This document shows positions 1 through 5,720 of a DNA stretch of 6,519 nucleotides, piece by piece. The notes under the pieces were generated by a model. The model did not search any database and had not been told where the DNA came from. It was given only the letters and a program-made list of their open reading frames with translations. The stretch comes from Acidobacteriota bacterium (lineage in GTDB: Bacteria > Acidobacteriota > Terriglobia > Terriglobales > Acidobacteriaceae): contig JAJZNH010000611.1 of assembly GCA_021811745.1 (NCBI GenBank), forward strand, positions 1 through 6,519, in the 5' to 3' direction. The position numbers were made by a program, and so were the translations under genes. The first letter of the stretch is position 1, and every line of letters begins with the position of its first letter.

Positions 1-1258
1 TCTGAGAGCGGGCCTCGGCAATGATAGGAAGATCGGCGAGCGTCACCCCTCCATGCTGCTCTTCGCCGTCCGCGGCATTGAGTGACCCTTTGAGCACGTG
101 GAAATGCGCCGCATCCCCACCGAGCGCATCGAAACGTGGGCGGATCGTTTCGGCGATCGGGTTCTCAACGCTGAGGTAGAGCGTGCTGGCCGGTTCCAGA
201 GTCCGCCCATCGCGCAGTTTTCCACACGACAGGTCGGCGGCCACGGCCAGAGCGATAAATGATTTCCCGGCGCCCGGATCGCCGCTGAGCATAGAAAGCA
301 TTCGCACGGGGATGAATGGCTCCCAAAGCCAATCGACAGGCCGCGCCTCAACATCGGCAAGACAGAGCAAATCAGGCTTCAAGACTGGCTTTACCTCCGG
401 TTCGGATTTCGGGTTCGGATAACGCGCGGGAATGTCACGCGCGATGGCTCGCACCTTTCTCTCTGAAAGCGGCGGGGAACACTTTGCCGCGTTCTCAGCG
501 AGCAGGGCCGCTTCGATAGCGGCGGGGTTCATGCCCCGTTTGTTCATGGTTCCGACAAGGGAGACAAGATGGGGAGTGCGGTTGGGGTGTTCAACCACAG
601 CGCCCGCCGATGGCGCGCTTTGCCTGGCCTGTGCGCCTTTCGGCTCGTGGGTGAGGGATAGGAGCCAATCGGGACAGGGTACGAGCAAGTTGGCTGATTC
701 GTTGATTTCGTACCGGACGCCCCTCACGTGGAGCGAAGGCGGTGCCACGGCATATCCGCCCTGTCCGCGAATGTCCAACCCAGGAGCGATCCTGCTCTGA
801 GAGTTGCGCACCGCTACGCCTTCCGGCCAAAGGAAATAGAAATGCTGGCCACCCCCACCGGTTCGGACTGTATAGGTATCCGGCAGATGACAGCCGCGCT
901 GCGCGAATTCGATCAGCGATTCTTTGCCTCGCGCGCCGTCCACGTCAAGGACAAAGATGCCACTCTCCGCCCCGGTCACGATGCCGATATTGGCATCCGG
1001 CCATCGGTCCCACCATTCGTGGATAGTGGCAGGATCGCGTGTGGCATCTTTGAGCCCGTGCGCAGTCCGCGGATGTTTGCCGGGATTCGCACACTCCGTC
1101 CGCCCGCAAGAGCAGCCGCGCGCTGTAGGCGTGTGAAGCGGGATCACGGGCCAACCGCGCGCTGTGTAGGCAAGAGCCGCCGAACGAGCATCGACAATGC
1201 TGCCTGCTTCGTCGCAGTCACTATTACGCGGGGTCGAGTGAATCTCACCGTGCGCCAT
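1..1258 (-). CDS. Bifunctional primase-polymerase with AAA (RepA-like) ATPase domain, C-terminus beyond window
   Basis: Replication protein of a mobile element, expected to make primers/DNA and to act as a helicase-type ATPase. The frame stays open for 419 codons from ATG 1258 and leaves the window on the left. Residues about 24-200 match the prim-pol domain: GWPVIPL near 35; a Cys-rich loop (Cys49, Cys51, Cys56, then NPGKHPR); WW at 82; the metal-binding DVD at 105-107; GGGGQHFYF at 134-142; GLDIRG at 160; and GYAVAPPS. Residues about 225-280 look like a primase C-terminal (PriCT-like) helical segment. Residues about 305-419 begin an AAA_25/RepA-type ATPase with Walker A GDPGAGKS at 326-333 and LYLSVEN at 360-366. 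Walker B lies outside the window. The start sits one base after the stop of the preceding HTH gene, so translation is probably coupled. Domain identity is clear; the in vivo role is inferred from the family. Confidence 0.93.
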   Translation of the reverse strand, partial: MAHGEIHSTPRNSDCDEAGSIVDARSAALAYTARGWPVIPLHTPTARGCSCGRTECANPGKHPRTAHGLKDATRDPATIHEWWDRWPDANIGIVTGAESGIFVLDVDGARGKESLIEFAQRGCHLPDTYTVRTGGGGQHFYFLWPEGVAVRNSQSRIAPGLDIRGQGGYAVAPPSLHVRGVRYEINESANLLVPCPDWLLSLTHEPKGAQARQSAPSAGAVVEHPNRTPHLVSLVGTMNKRGMNPAAIEAALLAENAAKCSPPLSERKVRAIARDIPARYPNPKSEPEVKPVLKPDLLCLADVEARPVDWLWEPFIPVRMLSMLSGDPGAGKSFIALAVAADLSCGKLRDGRTLEPASTLYLSVENPIAETIRPRFDALGGDAAHFHVLKGSLNAADGEEQHGGVTLADLPIIAEARSQ

Positions 1259-1259
1259 T

Positions 1260-1454
1260 CTACGCGGCCTCACGGTCAGTACCGTTCTTTATGAATCGTT
1301 CGACATCGGGCTGGCTGAAAAGCAGCCGGCGACAAATCCGCGTTGGATGCAGTTTGTTCTTTCGCACAAAGCTACGGATTGTGTGCGGACTGAGCCTGAG
1401 CAGGTCCGCCACTTCCGATAGAGTCAAGAGTCGAGGAATTGCGTCGGCCATCAT
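1260..1454 (-). CDS. Small AlpA/excisionase-type helix-turn-helix DNA-binding protein (second of a pair)
   Basis: A 64-residue protein of the MerR-like excisionase/AlpA type. LLTLSEVADLLRLSPHTIRSF (residues 9-29) is a classic helix-turn-helix, followed by a short basic wing (RKNKL, then RRLLFSQPDVERFI) typical of the family. Such proteins act as recombination directionality factors or as transcription activators of element genes. ATG 1454 overlaps the previous gene's TGA as ATGA; ATG 1451 (TGATG) is equally possible and sits better behind AAAGGGGG (1456-1463). A GTG at 1505 would give 17 more residues, but these would lie inside the upstream gene and have no HTH relevance, so I reject it. The stop is one base before the prim-pol start. 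Whether it serves as excisionase or regulator cannot be told from sequence. Confidence 0.88.
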   Translation of the reverse strand: MMADAIPRLLTLSEVADLLRLSPHTIRSFVRKNKLHPTRICRRLLFSQPDVERFIKNGTDREAA

Positions 1455-1621
1455 TCCCCCTTTGCTATCCGGCGAGCTTCCACTGCTTCTGCCGAAATTC
1501 GCCACTGCCTATTAACCTTCCGGGCACTGAGCTTGTTCGCCCATACGAGCGAGTAGAGGTGATTCAGAGACACACCGAGCCTGCGAGCAGCCTCGGAAAC
1601 GGTGATTTCATGCTTTGCCAT
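1451..1621 (-). CDS. 56-residue helix-turn-helix protein, excisionase/AlpA-like (first of a pair)
   Basis: A short gene that a length cut-off of 60 codons would miss. ATG 1621 follows a very good ribosome binding site, GGAGGA (1628-1633), at 6-nt spacing. The protein begins MAKHEITVSEAARRLGVS and ends RRIAKGE. Residues 6-26 form a helix-turn-helix (ITVSEAARRLGVSLNHLYSL), followed by a wing with WANKLSARKVNRQWRIS, as in excisionase/AlpA proteins. It resembles the next gene in the same positions: T-x-SEA/V-A, S, S-x-V, NKL, and a basic stretch before V-E. It is therefore probably an old tandem duplicate. Its TGA overlaps the next start. It heads the leftward operon, facing the zinc-finger/integrase pair, and is the natural candidate for controlling both. 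Function beyond DNA binding is inferred. Confidence 0.87.
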   Translation of the reverse strand: MAKHEITVSEAARRLGVSLNHLYSLVWANKLSARKVNRQWRISAEAVEARRIAKGE

Positions 1622-1633
1622 GGTGTTTCCTCC

Positions 1634-1662
1634 TTGACAGCATCAGTAGTAGCAGTTACAGT
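1634..1662 (+). promoter_or_regulatory. Candidate sigma70 promoter for the zinc-finger/integrase genes
   Basis: A perfect -35 TTGACA (1634-1639) is followed by 17 bp and TACAGT (1657-1662, 4 of 6 to TATAAT). Predicted transcription start is about 1668-1670, which coincides with GTG 1669, so the message could be leaderless. The element sits right against the divergent HTH gene's ribosome binding site. I see no equally good promoter for the minus-strand operon in the same gap. Confidence 0.5.
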
Positions 1663-1686
1663 ATTTCCGTGATACGTGACCGTAAC
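1655..1686. promoter_or_regulatory. Possible operator between divergent operons
   Basis: GTTACAGT (1655-1662) and ACCGTAAC (1679-1686) form an inverted repeat of 8 bp with one mismatch. Between them CGTGA occurs twice in direct order, 7 bp apart (CGTGATACGTGAC). The left arm overlaps the -10 box. This is a plausible binding site for one of the two adjacent HTH proteins, but no binding data exist. Confidence 0.3.
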
Positions 1687-2442
1687 AAAACCGTTATCAA
1701 CAAAGAAAGCTTCGACATCCTGATTCCCGCCAGTCGAGCGGAAGCGGCAGGTGAAGCAACTTTCGGCGTTGAGTTTGGACCGCCCAAGCCTGTTCGCATC
1801 TTCACCAAAGATGACCGCCAGCGAGCAATAAAGAGAATCAACGGTAAAGAAGGGAAACTCTTTGACGCGCTCTTAGCTTTGAGGGGTGCACTGGAATCGA
1901 GAGACGCATTGCAGATAGAAGCTGCGAGGGCACGACTGGAGCGGTTCTATCGTTTACGGGAAGACGAGGATCCACCTTACGTGTCAAAAGACCCTGAGAT
2001 AGACCGACAATTTGCTGAAGTTCTTGCGCAGCGGTCGGGGCTCTCGCCCGAGGAGGCTATAAAACACTTCGAGGGTTTACGTCCCGGTCCAAGGGCAAAA
2101 TCTGATCCGTTCAGATTACTTTCCTACGAAGTTTCGCAGCGTGTCAGTGGTCCGCTGGAAACCGAGCTCGTTCTCTGGTGGGACGGCAAAGAATTCAGGC
2201 CGGCAATCTATTGCAGCGATCATGTATCGGCGCTCTATGTCCACACATTCTTTCTCGGCCGGACACGCTACCGGATTTGTCCAAAATGCGGGGAGCGCTT
2301 TGAACAACTTCGACCCAACCAAGATTACTGCACCGTCGCCCACAGGGAAGCGCATCGCGTCAAGCGCTTCCGCAACGCGAAGAAGTCTCAGCAACGCAAT
2401 AAAGAGAAAGGGGGAAACAATGGCACTCAAGAAACGCGGTAA
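1669..2442 (+). CDS. Unrecognised protein with C-terminal CxxC...C...H zinc finger, upstream of integrase
   Basis: About 257 residues from GTG 1669. I do not recognise the family. The C-terminal 60 residues hold a treble-clef-like zinc finger: CPKC at 204-207, then Cys221 and His225 or His229, followed by a very basic tail (VKRFRNAKKSQQ). This resembles CGNR-type fingers, so nucleic-acid binding is likely. The middle contains a charged helical stretch (about 48-100), and residues 162-195 (LVLWWDGKEFRP, ALYVHTFF) look like a small beta/alpha domain. An in-frame ATG at 1615 lies before the promoter and inside the opposing HTH gene, so I prefer GTG 1669. No Shine-Dalgarno sequence precedes it. 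The last 23 bp overlap the integrase start, which suggests co-expression and a possible accessory role in integration or control. That role is inference only. Confidence 0.75.
   Translation: MIRDRNKTVINKESFDILIPASRAEAAGEATFGVEFGPPKPVRIFTKDDRQRAIKRINGKEGKLFDALLALRGALESRDALQIEAARARLERFYRLREDEDPPYVSKDPEIDRQFAEVLAQRSGLSPEEAIKHFEGLRPGPRAKSDPFRLLSYEVSQRVSGPLETELVLWWDGKEFRPAIYCSDHVSALYVHTFFLGRTRYRICPKCGERFEQLRPNQDYCTVAHREAHRVKRFRNAKKSQQRNKEKGGNNGTQETR
2407..2414 (+). promoter_or_regulatory. Ribosome binding site that fixes the integrase start
   Basis: AAAGGGGG lies 5 nt before ATG 2420, inside the end of the zinc-finger gene. It supports a start at 2420 rather than at any upstream in-frame ATG such as 2141. 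Confidence 0.7.
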
Positions 2443-3574
2443 AACGTGGCACTGTCATTTCGTTGTCAACGGGCAACGATTCCGGCAGAGCCTTGAGACA
2501 ACGGACTGGCGAGAAGCCCAAAACAAAGAGAAGGAACTGATAGCAGACGCGCAGGCGGGCAAGTTGCACCAGACCTCAACGTCTCTGGCGCGTCAACCGT
2601 TCGGGGATGCGGCAGACGATTACCAGACTGCTCGCAAGCTGGAGTTGGCCCCGGCCAGCCGCGCCAAGGAAAAGCAACTGCTGGTGCAACTGCGGGCCTA
2701 CTTCAAACAGGAACCACTGAAGGCGATCACAGCCAAGCGAATCATTGAATACCGGGCATGGCGGGCAGAGCAGGGAGTGGGACCGGCAACCCTGAATGCG
2801 GAACTAGGCATTCTGCGGCGCGTTCTGAAGCGGGCGCGGCTTTGGGCAAGGGTTGCTGACGATATACGCCCCTTGAAAGAGCCGGGCACCATCGGGCGGG
2901 CATTGACTGAGGATGAGCAGCAACGGCTGCTCAAAACGGCTGTGATGCGTCCGGAGTGGGAAACGGCCTACCTTGCGGCCATCCTCTGCCTGAATACGAC
3001 CGCGCGGGGTTGCGAGTTGAAAGGGCTGCAATGGGCGGACGTGGACCTGTTCGCAAAGACGCTCACCATCCGCAAGAGCAAGACGGCTGCCGGGGAGCGC
3101 ATCGTACCCTTGACCACGGTTGCCTGTTCCGCCTTGGCGCGGCTGCGGGCGCGGGCGGAATCGTTCAAACCCGTGGAACCGGCCCACTACGTTTTTGCCG
3201 CATTCAAACCCAAATTCACTTTCAGCGGCCAGACAGTCGTGGATTACAACGTGACCGGCTTCGATCCCTCGCGGCATCTGAATAGTTGGCGGTCAGCTTG
3301 GCGGACGCTAACGAAAAAGGCGGGGCTGCCCGGCTTCCGGTTTCACGATCTGCGGCACTGTGCGATCACGTCACTTGCCGAGAGCGGCGCGTCAGACTCA
3401 ACCATCATGGCGATTGCCGGACACGTCAGCCGCCGGATGCTGGAGCGGTATAGTCACGTCCGAATGGAAGCCAAACGCGCGGCCCTTGAAACCCTTGCCA
3501 AGAGCACAGGAATTGAGGGTTATGACACAAACCATGACACAAATCAACCGTCTGTGACCGTTCGCCCTAGCTAA
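2420..3574 (+). CDS. int: Tyrosine recombinase (phage-type integrase), complete
   Basis: A 384-residue site-specific recombinase that integrates and excises the element at the adjacent attachment site. Residues 1-50 form the small arm-type DNA-binding domain (KRGKTWHCHFVVNGQRFRQS, then a helix). Residues about 60-150 are the SAM-like core-binding domain. Residues about 160-365 are the catalytic domain. Catalytic residues are all present: Arg196 (TTARGCELKGL), Lys219 or Lys221 on the beta hairpin, His309 and Arg312 (HDLRH), His335 (GHVS) and the nucleophile Tyr344 (LERYSHV). Length is normal for the family. The start is set by AAAGGGGG at 5-nt spacing. The extreme C-terminus (YDTNHDTN) is encoded by a 12-bp direct repeat that probably doubles as integrase-binding DNA. 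The stop is 14 bp from the tRNA-derived core. It appears functional. Confidence 0.97.
   Translation: MALKKRGKTWHCHFVVNGQRFRQSLETTDWREAQNKEKELIADAQAGKLHQTSTSLARQPFGDAADDYQTARKLELAPASRAKEKQLLVQLRAYFKQEPLKAITAKRIIEYRAWRAEQGVGPATLNAELGILRRVLKRARLWARVADDIRPLKEPGTIGRALTEDEQQRLLKTAVMRPEWETAYLAAILCLNTTARGCELKGLQWADVDLFAKTLTIRKSKTAAGERIVPLTTVACSALARLRARAESFKPVEPAHYVFAAFKPKFTFSGQTVVDYNVTGFDPSRHLNSWRSAWRTLTKKAGLPGFRFHDLRHCAITSLAESGASDSTIMAIAGHVSRRMLERYSHVRMEAKRAALETLAKSTGIEGYDTNHDTNQPSVTVRPS
3522..3543 (+). repeat. Direct repeat ATGACACAAA x2 in the integrase 3' end (candidate P-arm sites)
   Basis: ATGACACAAA occurs at 3522-3531 and again at 3534-3543, a 12-bp period. It lies inside the coding end of the integrase and about 45 bp from the attachment core. 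Paired short direct repeats at this distance are typical arm-type integrase or excisionase binding sites. Confidence 0.6.
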
Positions 3575-3588
3575 ATTATTGATTAGAT

Positions 3589-3637
3589 TGGTGGACCTGG
3601 TCGGGATCGAACCGACGACCTCTTCCATGCCATGGAG
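3589..3637 (-). other. 3' half of a tRNA-Ala(GGC) gene: attachment-site core
   Basis: Read on the minus strand this is the right half of a tRNA. The anticodon loop ATGGCAT has anticodon GGC at 3629-3631. The 3' anticodon strand GGAAG and variable AGGTC follow, then T stem GTCGG/CCGAC with loop TTCGATC, acceptor strand CAGGTCC, discriminator A and encoded CCA (3589-3591). To the right of about 3637 the sequence stops fitting: the 5' anticodon strand pairs for only 3 bp, and there is no D arm or 5' acceptor. It is therefore not a functional tRNA. Tyrosine integrases commonly recombine within the anticodon arm/3' half of tRNA genes, and the CCA end faces the integrase here. Confidence 0.88.
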
Positions 3638-3676
3638 TGGGTTCAAACGCAAGTTATAGACGGCACAGCACTTACA

Positions 3677-3712
3677 AACCGGCAGAACCGGCAAAAACGG
3701 CCTAATCGGCGT
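3677..3712 (+). repeat. Four tandem 9-bp units, consensus AANCGGCNN (candidate P'-arm sites)
   Basis: The units are AACCGGCAG, AACCGGCAA, AAACGGCCT and AATCGGCGT, exactly end to end. They start about 40 bp from the tRNA core on the side opposite the integrase. No gene covers them. I read them as protein-binding repeats (integrase arm sites or excisionase sites), which is inference from position. Confidence 0.6.
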
Positions 3713-3716
3713 TATT

Positions 3717-3737
3717 TGCTGCCAAAATGCTGCCAAA
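3717..3737 (+). repeat. Direct repeat TGCTGCCAAA x2, 11-bp period
   Basis: TGCTGCCAAA is found at 3717-3726 and 3728-3737, separated by one A. It follows the 9-bp array closely and spaces the sites about one helical turn apart, as expected for adjacent arm-type sites on one DNA face. Its CAAA end is shared with the ATGACACAAA repeats on the other side of the core. Confidence 0.55.
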
Positions 3738-3757
3738 TTTACCCTAAGCGGGCCACC

Positions 3758-3781
3758 GGGCTGATCGTGTGGAGTCAGCCC
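3758..3781. repeat. Inverted repeat GGGCTGA / TCAGCCC with 10-nt loop
   Basis: A perfect 7-bp stem (3758-3764 with 3775-3781) lies between the att repeats and the antitoxin promoter. There is no T-run after it, so a rho-independent terminator is not well supported. It may be a binding site or may insulate the toxin-antitoxin operon. Confidence 0.4.
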
Positions 3782-3813
3782 AAATCCCTTATGTAAGTGA
3801 CCTAAGGCATCTC

Positions 3814-3864: not shown

Positions 3865-4836
3865 ATGTCCGAATATGTCACGTCCCATGCAGCTCTCCTT
3901 GAACCTTCGGGGATCCATGCGCTCGACGTCCGCCATGCAATGGATAAACTCGTTGCCGCGGCTTCATCTGAGAATCCTGAATCCAACGCGGCGTACGGTG
4001 TCGTCGTCTACCGTGCGGCGAAGAAAGGGCCGGCGCCGAACATTCTCAGCGCGACCGGCAGGTTCGTCCGAGCCTATCTCAAGGGATGGACCGCTCTCAA
4101 GAAGATGGAAGTCGGAGCCGTTGGAGTTGGAGCGGACAGTCAACACGGAATCGGCGTGCTCCAACACGGCGACGTTCGCTTCGTCGTAAAGGTCTTCGCT
4201 GGCACAGCCGCAGTGAGCGCCCTGAAAAAAGAAGCGAAGCCATCGCCTGGCGTCTACATCAATACGACAAATCTCGACACATTGTTGCTCGACGATCTCA
4301 GACTTCCTCACCTTCCTGAGCGTTTCCAAAATATGCCACTGGTCATGCAGGTGGAGGAAACCGAGCAAAAGAGCGATGAACCGTTACTCGGATGGGAAGA
4401 CTTCGTCAAGTCATCTTCCAATGAGATTTCGGCTCAGGAAACCATCAGCCGCGACACCGTGGAATGGCGAAGCCATTTCATGAAGAAGTATCCAAGCTGG
4501 ACAGCAAAGGAAGTTGCGGACCAAAGCACGAGCACGGCGAAGAACCGCGCAGCACTGGCCTCACGCTGGGCCCAGGAGAAGAAGATTTTCGCGGTGAAAT
4601 ATAAGGGCCAACTATGGTACCCGCGCTTCCAGTTTCAGAACGGCGAGCCGTTGCCTATAATCGGCCAAGCGATTCAGGCATATCCCAGCTATGCGAACGG
4701 ATGGGACTTCGCGTATTTCTTTGCCACTTCGAATGCGAACATCGGCGGCCGGAAGCCTCTGGAATTGCTCAAGACGGATCCGGAGCGGGTTCTCTCGCTT
4801 GCCCGGGCCGCCGCCAATCCTGCCGATGCCTATTAA
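3865..4836 (+). CDS. Xre/MbcA/ParS-type antitoxin with long N-terminal extension
   Basis: A 323-residue protein, first gene of a toxin-antitoxin operon. The C-terminal third carries the hallmarks of RES-partner antitoxins: a putative HTH-like segment (about 195-250, with TAKEVADQ and NRAALASRWAQEKKIFAV), then WYPRFQF (251-257) and EPLPII. The DUF2384/toxin-binding segment follows with GWDFAYFF (279-286), IGGRKPLELL (293-302) and DPERVLSLA (305-313). Known members neutralise the RES toxin by capping its active site and repress their operon. Members are usually around 130-250 residues, so residues 1-190 are extra. That part (AAYGVVVYRAAKKG, FVRAYLKGWTALKKM, VRFVVKVFAG, LLLDDLRLP) is not one I recognise and has no membrane segment or signal. 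The gene overlaps the toxin start by 11 bp. Antitoxin assignment is good; the role of the N-terminal domain is unknown. Confidence 0.85.
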   Translation: MSEYVTSHAALLEPSGIHALDVRHAMDKLVAAASSENPESNAAYGVVVYRAAKKGPAPNILSATGRFVRAYLKGWTALKKMEVGAVGVGADSQHGIGVLQHGDVRFVVKVFAGTAAVSALKKEAKPSPGVYINTTNLDTLLLDDLRLPHLPERFQNMPLVMQVEETEQKSDEPLLGWEDFVKSSSNEISAQETISRDTVEWRSHFMKKYPSWTAKEVADQSTSTAKNRAALASRWAQEKKIFAVKYKGQLWYPRFQFQNGEPLPIIGQAIQAYPSYANGWDFAYFFATSNANIGGRKPLELLKTDPERVLSLARAAANPADAY

Positions 4837-5515
4837 CTGTCCACCCGCTCCAGCAGCAGCCAATCCGGCGCTCATCGTCCAGACCTCGATTTTGAAGGCC
4901 GGTACGGTGCTGATGCGCTTTCATAGCAAGGCTCGCGCAGGGGACATTTATAACCCAAACACAAACAAGCGCATCGATATCGAAGAGGACGGGGCGCGAT
5001 TCAATCCATTCCCCGGAGCCCCGGCAGCCAATGTGCCAACCCTGTACGCTGCCGATAATCTGAGTGCGGCTGCGCTTGAAAGCATCTTTCACGGGGTGAA
5101 GCACGTTCCATCTCCGACCTTTCCCAGAATAGGGCTCAAAGAATCGTGCTACAGCGAGCTTAAGGTTAACGACAACATTGTTGTGCTTGAACTTGTGAAC
5201 CCCCAACTCCGGCAGATTGCGGTCGCAGGTCGCCGTGCCTCATTGAACGAAGGCGAACTGATTCATACTCCGCCCCGCCAATATAAAAACACCCGCACAT
5301 GGGCTGGCTACCTGCATGCAAGCCTGCCTGCTCTCCAAGGACTTTGCTGGCGTCCGCGGCTCGGTGGGACCGGTCATGCCTACATGCTCTTTGGAGACCG
5401 CTGCGCTCCTGGAGCTCTGATCGTAAAGTCCGGCCCCATTGACATCGATTCGGGAACGGGATTCGTCAAAGTGTTCGCGGTCGCCCAATCGGCAAACATC
5501 AAGATCATCGGTTGA
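4826..5515 (+). CDS. RES-domain toxin (NAD+-consuming or ADP-ribosylating family)
   Basis: A 229-residue protein with a RES domain. Known members degrade NAD+ (MbcT-type phosphorylase) or ADP-ribosylate a target (ParT), halting growth. Visible blocks: LMRFHS at 29-34; GARFNP at 56-61 with Arg58; PTLYAAD with Tyr74; AAALESIFHG with Glu85; TWAGYLHASLPALQGLCW (158-175); and AYMLFGDR (185-192). The conserved Arg and Glu are present. The expected Ser in the block before LFGDR is not obvious: the sequence is W-R-P-R, with Pro177 about where W-x-S-R proteins carry Ser. ATG 4826 lies inside the antitoxin end (11-bp overlap), the usual antitoxin-then-toxin order with coupled translation. An in-frame ATG at 4691 is rejected because it lies deep in the antitoxin gene. 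Activity may be altered if the Ser is truly lost. Confidence 0.87.
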   Translation: MPINCPPAPAAANPALIVQTSILKAGTVLMRFHSKARAGDIYNPNTNKRIDIEEDGARFNPFPGAPAANVPTLYAADNLSAAALESIFHGVKHVPSPTFPRIGLKESCYSELKVNDNIVVLELVNPQLRQIAVAGRRASLNEGELIHTPPRQYKNTRTWAGYLHASLPALQGLCWRPRLGGTGHAYMLFGDRCAPGALIVKSGPIDIDSGTGFVKVFAVAQSANIKIIG

Positions 5516-5667
5516 CAGGTTGGCCTCTTACTTCAAAAACTCAGTCCCTGCCGGAGCAGCCTGCCGAGCGGATTTGTGGCACCCCTTTCGCATTATCCGG
5601 AATCTTATGGATCGACAACGCCCGATTTTTCAGGCTCTTGCTACCAGCGACTGCGGCGAACCGTACC

Positions 5668-5720
5668 AAGGCGAAATAAGGCGGTCGAATAAGGCGGAAT
5701 TGGGCGGAATTGGCGGGATT
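5668..5720 (+). repeat. Degenerate 10-bp tandem repeat, GGCGGAAT type
   Basis: Successive units are AAGGCGAAAT (5668), AAGGCGGTCGAAT (5678), AAGGCGGAAT (5691), TGGGCGGAAT (5701) and TGGCGGGATT (5711). Four of the five are exactly 10 bp and one is 13 bp. A 10-bp period puts each unit on the same face of the helix, as in iterons or multi-site operators. No function is proven. Confidence 0.55.

Follow-up and report, generated by a model that had tools for sequence, protein, structure and literature searches.

Organization of the Locus

The stretch of DNA analyzed here, referred to as the window, is 6,519 nt long. Read from left to right, it begins with genes for a primase-polymerase and two small HTH proteins on the minus strand, followed on the plus strand by a reading frame whose cysteines are zinc-ribbon-like and by the gene of a tyrosine integrase, all of which are assigned to element B (Table 1). 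A C-terminus resembling that of the zinc-ribbon-like frame, as compared by eye, is found at the equivalent place in one relative (L001, 7118-8023). The Phage_integrase domain (PF00589) adjoins the 3′ end of a tRNA gene, making this a tyrosine integrase element at tRNA-Ala(GGC).

The first-pass annotation had described a 3′ part of tRNA-Ala(GGC) that lacks its 5′ half and lies between two repeat-bearing arms, and this arrangement is confirmed by the sequence itself, by ARAGORN, by shuffled controls and by the recurrence of the repeats in relatives of each arm. The tRNA-derived core, which starts about 15 bp past the integrase stop codon, is identical to that of relatives save for a few bases, and the match to the tRNA includes three bases of the stem's other strand, past the anticodon loop (...CCATGCCATGGA). 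ARAGORN found no complete tRNA in the window, and Rfam gave a single sub-threshold match over the core (E 0.096). The same core recurs in 9 of 11 and in 9 of 9 genomes searched, often in at least two copies. In the window it sits between two elements of the same orientation, flanked by int to its left and by a P arm to its right, as in a chimeric attachment site. Searches of phage and plasmid collections for near matches to the window DNA returned none, and IMG/VR yielded no relative of the window integrase or of the RES protein, nor any match to the one core-plus-right-arm pattern searched there.

Table 1. Genes and attachment-site features of the window, with the evidence for each.
Feature	Position	Strand	Evidence
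Prim-Pol primase/polymerase with AAA_25 domain, element B (left)	2..1273	-	Pfam PF09250 E 1.5e-49, PF13481 E 4.5e-15; open at window edge
HTH_17 protein, excisionase-like, element B	1260..1505	-	Pfam PF12728 E 6e-11; phrog_66 excisionase and regulator E 6.6e-10
Second small HTH_17 protein, excisionase-like, element B	1451..1621	-	Pfam PF12728 E 3.2e-12; phrog_2655 excisionase E 3e-4
Frame with C-terminal zinc-ribbon-like cysteines beside int, element B	1615..2442	+	Pfam: only sub-cut-off matches (cut-off 0.001)
Tyrosine integrase of element B (family 1)	2420..3574	+	PF00589 E 2.8e-23; phrog_1 E 1.5e-58; 11 relatives 79-93% identical
P′ arm of element B, with two ATGACACAAA repeats (spacing 12 bp) that overlap the int 3′ end	3522..3545	+	Copies at 3522 and 3534; family-1 relatives have this type in their P′ and P arms
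Shared core, tRNA-Ala(GGC) 3′ part, anticodon loop to 3′ end	about 3588-3636	-	Identity to relatives
Probable P (int-distal) arm of element A, different integrase family	3637..3790	+	3588-3782 82.7% identical to core plus arm in G006; 9/396 genomes
Four 9-bp units (ACCGGCAGA, ACCGGCAAA, AACGGCCTA, ATCGGCGTT)	3678..3713	+	Similar in element-A relatives
Two 11-bp arm-type repeats (TGCTGCCAAAA, TGCTGCCAAAT), type of element A's family	3717..3738	+	TGCTGCC repeats also in P′ arms of G072, G405, G213, G114, G363
Likely antitoxin, element A cargo	3865..4836	+	PF09722 (Xre/MbcA/ParS C-terminal toxin-binding domain), weak match at E 0.0046, below cut-off
RES-domain toxin, element A cargo	4826..5515	+	PF08808 E 9.7e-12, above cut-off; start overlaps antitoxin end

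The Left Arm and Its Relatives

The tandem repeats of the left arm exceed what chance would give, with none of 1000 dinucleotide shuffles of 3500-3589 reaching the observed length. A scan of genome contigs for the window integrase found 11 loci; 10 of the 11 titles are acidobacterial, Sulfotelmatobacter being counted among these, and one is Formivibrio. Beside int, ARAGORN identified an intact tRNA-Ala(GGC) in six of these relatives (L001, L002, L004, L005, L007, L010) and a tRNA-Val(GAC) in L011, while in L006 (tRNA-Val-like) and L009 (tRNA-Ala) the 5′ half of the tRNA follows a masked stretch. The 5′ half therefore adjoins int in 9 of the 11 relatives, the contigs of the other two (L003, L008) ending in or at the core, and the arrangement seen at the integrase end of the window occurs in none of the 11 (again with L003 and L008 ending in or at the core). 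A 5′ half to the right in related strains had been named in advance as a sign of a simple deletion; it is indeed there in these nine, but the right side of the window is a recognizable arm and not the flank of a simple deletion. Separately, the integrases of L006 and L011 are about 80% identical to that of the window yet adjoin tRNA-Val (GAC in L011) with a partly shared core, which suggests retargeting within family 1.

The far ends of family-1 elements are visible in several genomes. A second, upstream copy of the core is present in L001, L004, L010 and, in part, L008 (masked), and the P arm that follows it carries, some 150 bp away from this copy, a pair of the TGACACAA type. Further TGACACAA-type P arms occur in G003, G005, G007 and G009, and that of G002 is cut by the contig end. 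Family-1 relatives with a visible far end have TGACACAA-type repeats in both arms. The right arm of the window contains no TGACACAA and does not match the family-1 P arms.

The Right Arm and a Second Integrase Family

The tandem repeats on the right are also above chance, 2 of 1000 dinucleotide shuffles of 3638-3760 reaching the observed length, and the repeats of each window arm recur at similar offsets in the relatives of that arm. The core search in the genomes of the 11 relatives found, in G006, one core followed by sequence homologous to window positions 3637-3782. A right-arm query (3634-3790) was then searched in 396 genomes of the phylum of G006, that genome included, and matched at 14 places in nine of them. 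Eleven of these places directly abut the tRNA-Ala core; of the other three, two consist of a TGCTGCC repeat upstream of a core and one (L041) has no core. The paired P-arm repeats differ from element to element (TGCTGCC, TGCTACC, TGCGGGC, TGCGACA, TGACACC, TGACACA), and their offset is nearly constant (+81 to +82 in most) within an arm that stays similar around them. These matches and repeats mark the right arm of the window as the int-distal arm of a second integrase family, to which, judging from its arm repeats, the integrase of element A would belong. The arm repeats presumably bind the N-terminal domains of the integrases, as in known tyrosine integrases (PMC8138268), and the four 9-bp units may be sites for an accessory protein.

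Three repeats of the TGCTGCCAAAA type also lie downstream of a different integrase on an IMG/VR viral contig (L012, 990-1260), and judging from this contig the type may be widespread. No tRNA was found at the repeats of L012, which was therefore left out as evidence.

Arm Pairing Within Elements and Across Junctions

The relation between the two arms of an element was measured on 14 segments, each bounded by two cores on one contig, by aligning the integrase-side arm to the far-side arm. Several of the family-1 segments in this set are close relatives, and the G213 segment, which spans 217 kb, may not be one element. The within-segment scores sum to 254, compared with a permuted mean of 153 and maximum of 221, so that none of 20,000 permutations reaches the observed value, and the repeat itself gives the best alignment in all 14 segments. 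At the 10 junctions that were picked for a recognizable left arm, the window among them, the left and right arms score 6-9 against each other, the level of unrelated arms. The left arm of the window scores 17-26 against six family-1 P arms, and its right arm 13-23 against three TGCTGCC P′ arms and 12 against the TGCTACC one. Against each other the two window arms score 9, which is background, and each matches a different family.

The link between arm type and family is not strict. In segment G381b the P arm (TGACACAAA) scores only 10 with its own partner, compared with 15 for the left arm of the window and 8-16 for family-1 P′ arms; therefore, arm type alone does not name a family. In G166 the arms left and right of the junction align best (score 9) over the two repeat pairs. 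To the left of the L045, L053, L055 and L077 junctions no intact integrase frame was found, and the neighbors there were accordingly called from repeats only.

Arrays in Other Genomes

Junctions of the same kind occur inside single contigs elsewhere. The clearest array is that of G381, a single 5.66-Mb contig with four cores of the same orientation (at 3435163, 3414809, 3351012 and 3318964), the last of which is part of an intact tRNA-Ala(GGC). The three segments between them carry CGTATC, TGACACAAA and TGCTACC repeats, respectively, each type at both ends. In G072, two segments precede the intact tRNA, one of 15.8 kb with TGCTGCC repeats and one of 81 kb with the TTGCTCCC type, while G166 has one TGACACC segment ahead of the intact tRNA and a TGGTAGC arm outside that segment. 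The reverse of the window's combination is found in L010, where a family-1 element follows an integrase frame with TGACACC arms, the frame being cut by the contig start. To the left of the 11 P-arm sites, an arm repeat, integrase or remnant of another element was recognized in seven (L032, L033, L034, L037, L038, L039, L040; L033 was assigned by eye, its left repeat being absent from the scripted repeat list), and in the other four no clear element is present.

Altogether, the arm-repeat types that share the tRNA-Ala(GGC) core are TGACACAA, TGACACC, TGCTGCC, TGCTACC, CGTATC and the TTGCTCCC type, and a TGCGACA arm repeat is found on two contigs of one genome. To relate arm repeats to the N-termini of the integrases, 24 frames were sought; two sites had no frame, several automatically picked frames were fragments or non-integrases, and 10 of the 24 could be aligned. 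These 10 fall into at least three lineages, the third being 22-28% identical to parts of the others, and family-1 and family-2 integrases gave no blastp match to each other at 1e-5. This makes tRNA-Ala(GGC) an integration hotspot for at least three integrase lineages, and no published description of such a hotspot was found among the literature matches listed.

Origin of the Site and Alternative Explanations

Taken together, these observations make it very probable that the window holds a chimeric attachment site produced by tandem accretion, the seam of two different elements at one tRNA gene. Element B would first have integrated at tRNA-Ala(GGC), its integrase-side core restoring the 3′ part of the tRNA. 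Element A, with a distantly related integrase and the same tRNA target, would have integrated later by recombination around the anticodon loop, and its insertion would have shifted the tRNA 5′ half to its other side. The resulting row would consist of the P′ arm of B, the 3′ part of the tRNA and the P (int-distal) arm of A, with the RES toxin-antitoxin pair as cargo at the int-distal end of A; the integrase of A, the intact tRNA and the far end of B would all lie beyond the window. In such a series the far arm of the newcomer lands, by this model, behind the integrase-side core of the older element and creates an attP-like site with mismatched arms. Since each integrating element would restore the 3′ part of the tRNA, the gene would stay a target for the next.

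The main remaining doubt about this reading concerns assembly over the shared core. An assembler could have joined the integrase end of element B to the far end of another element over the core of about 47 bp, which is nearly identical, repeated in genomes and long enough for a wrong join, and the source of the window is possibly a metagenome assembly. Such a chimera is nevertheless unlikely, given that the same architecture is found within the 5.66-Mb contig and other long contigs; moreover, 7 of 11 P-arm sites elsewhere have a trace of another element on their left, and real junctions therefore seem common. It is still less likely that the window shows a single element, B, that captured a foreign P arm by recombination. 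From 6.5 kb alone such a swap and a seam look the same, but a TGCTGCC P arm occurs in none of the seven family-1 elements whose two ends lie on the same contig (L001, L004, L008, L010, G003, G005, G007), and a hybrid with a swapped arm would be without the arm sites of B on one side.

The first-pass annotation had offered an excised circle, a junction of tandem elements and loss of the tRNA partner as options, and it is the tandem junction that holds, albeit one of two different elements. An integrase gene, two repeat-bearing arms and a missing tRNA 5′ half are what the attP of one excised element with the toxin-antitoxin pair at its other end would also present. A circle, like a tandem of one element, however, predicts the same repeats in both arms, as seen in 14 of 14 segments, while the arms of the window are unmatched and agree with two integrase families, which renders the circle extremely improbable. 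Equally hard to credit is the idea that the right side of the core is just a deletion or a secondary target other than a tRNA: only GGA is kept past the anticodon loop there, yet this flank is a conserved arm that other genomes also have behind the core, its repeats being at the matching offset (+81 to +82 in most). The pairing results suggest a practical rule for sites that look like attP in a raw contig: a true circle should have agreeing arm repeats on the two sides of the core. Such agreement was present between the ends of all 14 segments and absent at all 10 seams examined.

Comparison with Known Systems

Tycheposons are tyrosine-recombinase elements of marine hosts that sit at tRNA genes, often in series, and the window resembles them in these two respects. 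Tandem accretion at tRNA genes is already known as a route of genomic island growth. According to the review PMC5704250, ICEs, IMEs and CIMEs can accrete in tandem at a tRNA gene and then have an internal site of chimeric make-up (attI) between them, as in the S. agalactiae tRNA-Lys composite, and such a site is reported between elements whose integrases share under 30% identity. The arrays described here resemble those systems in that very different integrases use one target, in the internal chimeric att site and in decayed neighbors; they differ in belonging to Acidobacteria-type genomes, in the tRNA-Ala(GGC) target and in the integrases. The Dehalococcoides ssrA islands, as portrayed in PMC3146451, are likewise tandem islands parted by direct repeats of the 3′ end of an RNA gene, but they use a serine recombinase, unlike the tyrosine integrases with arm repeats of the window.

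Cargo Beside the Far Arm

The toxin-antitoxin operon had been placed in the first-pass annotation at the other end of the same circle. The arms of the window do not match, and this placement is therefore unsupported; the operon adjoins the far arm of the second integrase family. A search for proteins like the antitoxin found 28, one of which bears PF09722, and the cluster to which the window's antitoxin belongs lists three contigs, the longest of 8172 bases. Homologues of the RES protein are present in 5 of the 396 genomes (best E 6.9e-17), none of them at a listed P-arm place. No PDB entry was related in sequence to the RES protein at E up to 0.1 or to the antitoxin at E up to 1, and NCBIfam and PADLOC named neither protein at 0.001.

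At the second-family P-arm sites the same position is often occupied by AbiE genes. Neighbors were surveyed at 10 of the 11 sites, L050 being left out, and an AbiEi/AbiEii-like pair adjoins the P arm at 6 of these 10. Pfam confirmed AbiEi in L056, L053 and L049 and AbiEii in L056 and L053, while the pairs of L051, L052 and L057 were called from near-identical sequence only. The other neighbors are a sub-cut-off AbiEi_2 match (L055), an SLFN_AlbA_2 protein (L024), a small HTH-like protein (L045) and, on the other strand, NOV_C and SNF2 genes (L047). Among the listed frames within about 13 kb past the AbiE pair, no integrase was recognized by eye in L051, L052, L053 and L057, and these sites are possibly remnants that keep only the far arm and the toxin-antitoxin genes.

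By analogy, it is plausible that the RES toxin-antitoxin pair favors retention of the island. A role of this kind has precedent in the tested cases reported in PMC8978831 and PMC11062541. CGI48, described in PMC8978831, is similarly a composite island located at a tRNA gene and is stabilized by its toxin-antitoxin pair, HipAB; in that system one island carries the other and stabilization was shown by experiment, whereas the RES pair of the window is a candidate for such a role.

A more general and rather speculative idea is that the arms serve as address labels: distantly related integrase lineages would share the tRNA-Ala(GGC) core while their own repeats change in concert on the two arms of an element, so that elements might stack without excising their neighbors, with a toxin-antitoxin or defense slot beside the far arm securing each layer. 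If so, the natural series could read out a specificity code of the arm-binding domain. No residue-level code relating arm repeats to integrase N-termini emerged from the 10 aligned frames; the paired arm variants do open integrase arm recognition to comparison.

Two smaller observations can be added. In L056 (11451-14845, minus strand), a segment of 3.35 kb between two cores consists of a P arm, an AbiEi/AbiEii pair and an integrase frame that, unlike its relatives, has no N-terminal part and is interrupted close to the end; the segment is apparently an internal-deletion derivative. At both second-family loci where it was seen, a GGCGG-rich repeat (AATAAGGCGG) follows the cargo genes, at 5655-5709 in the window and at 2294-2347 in L024.
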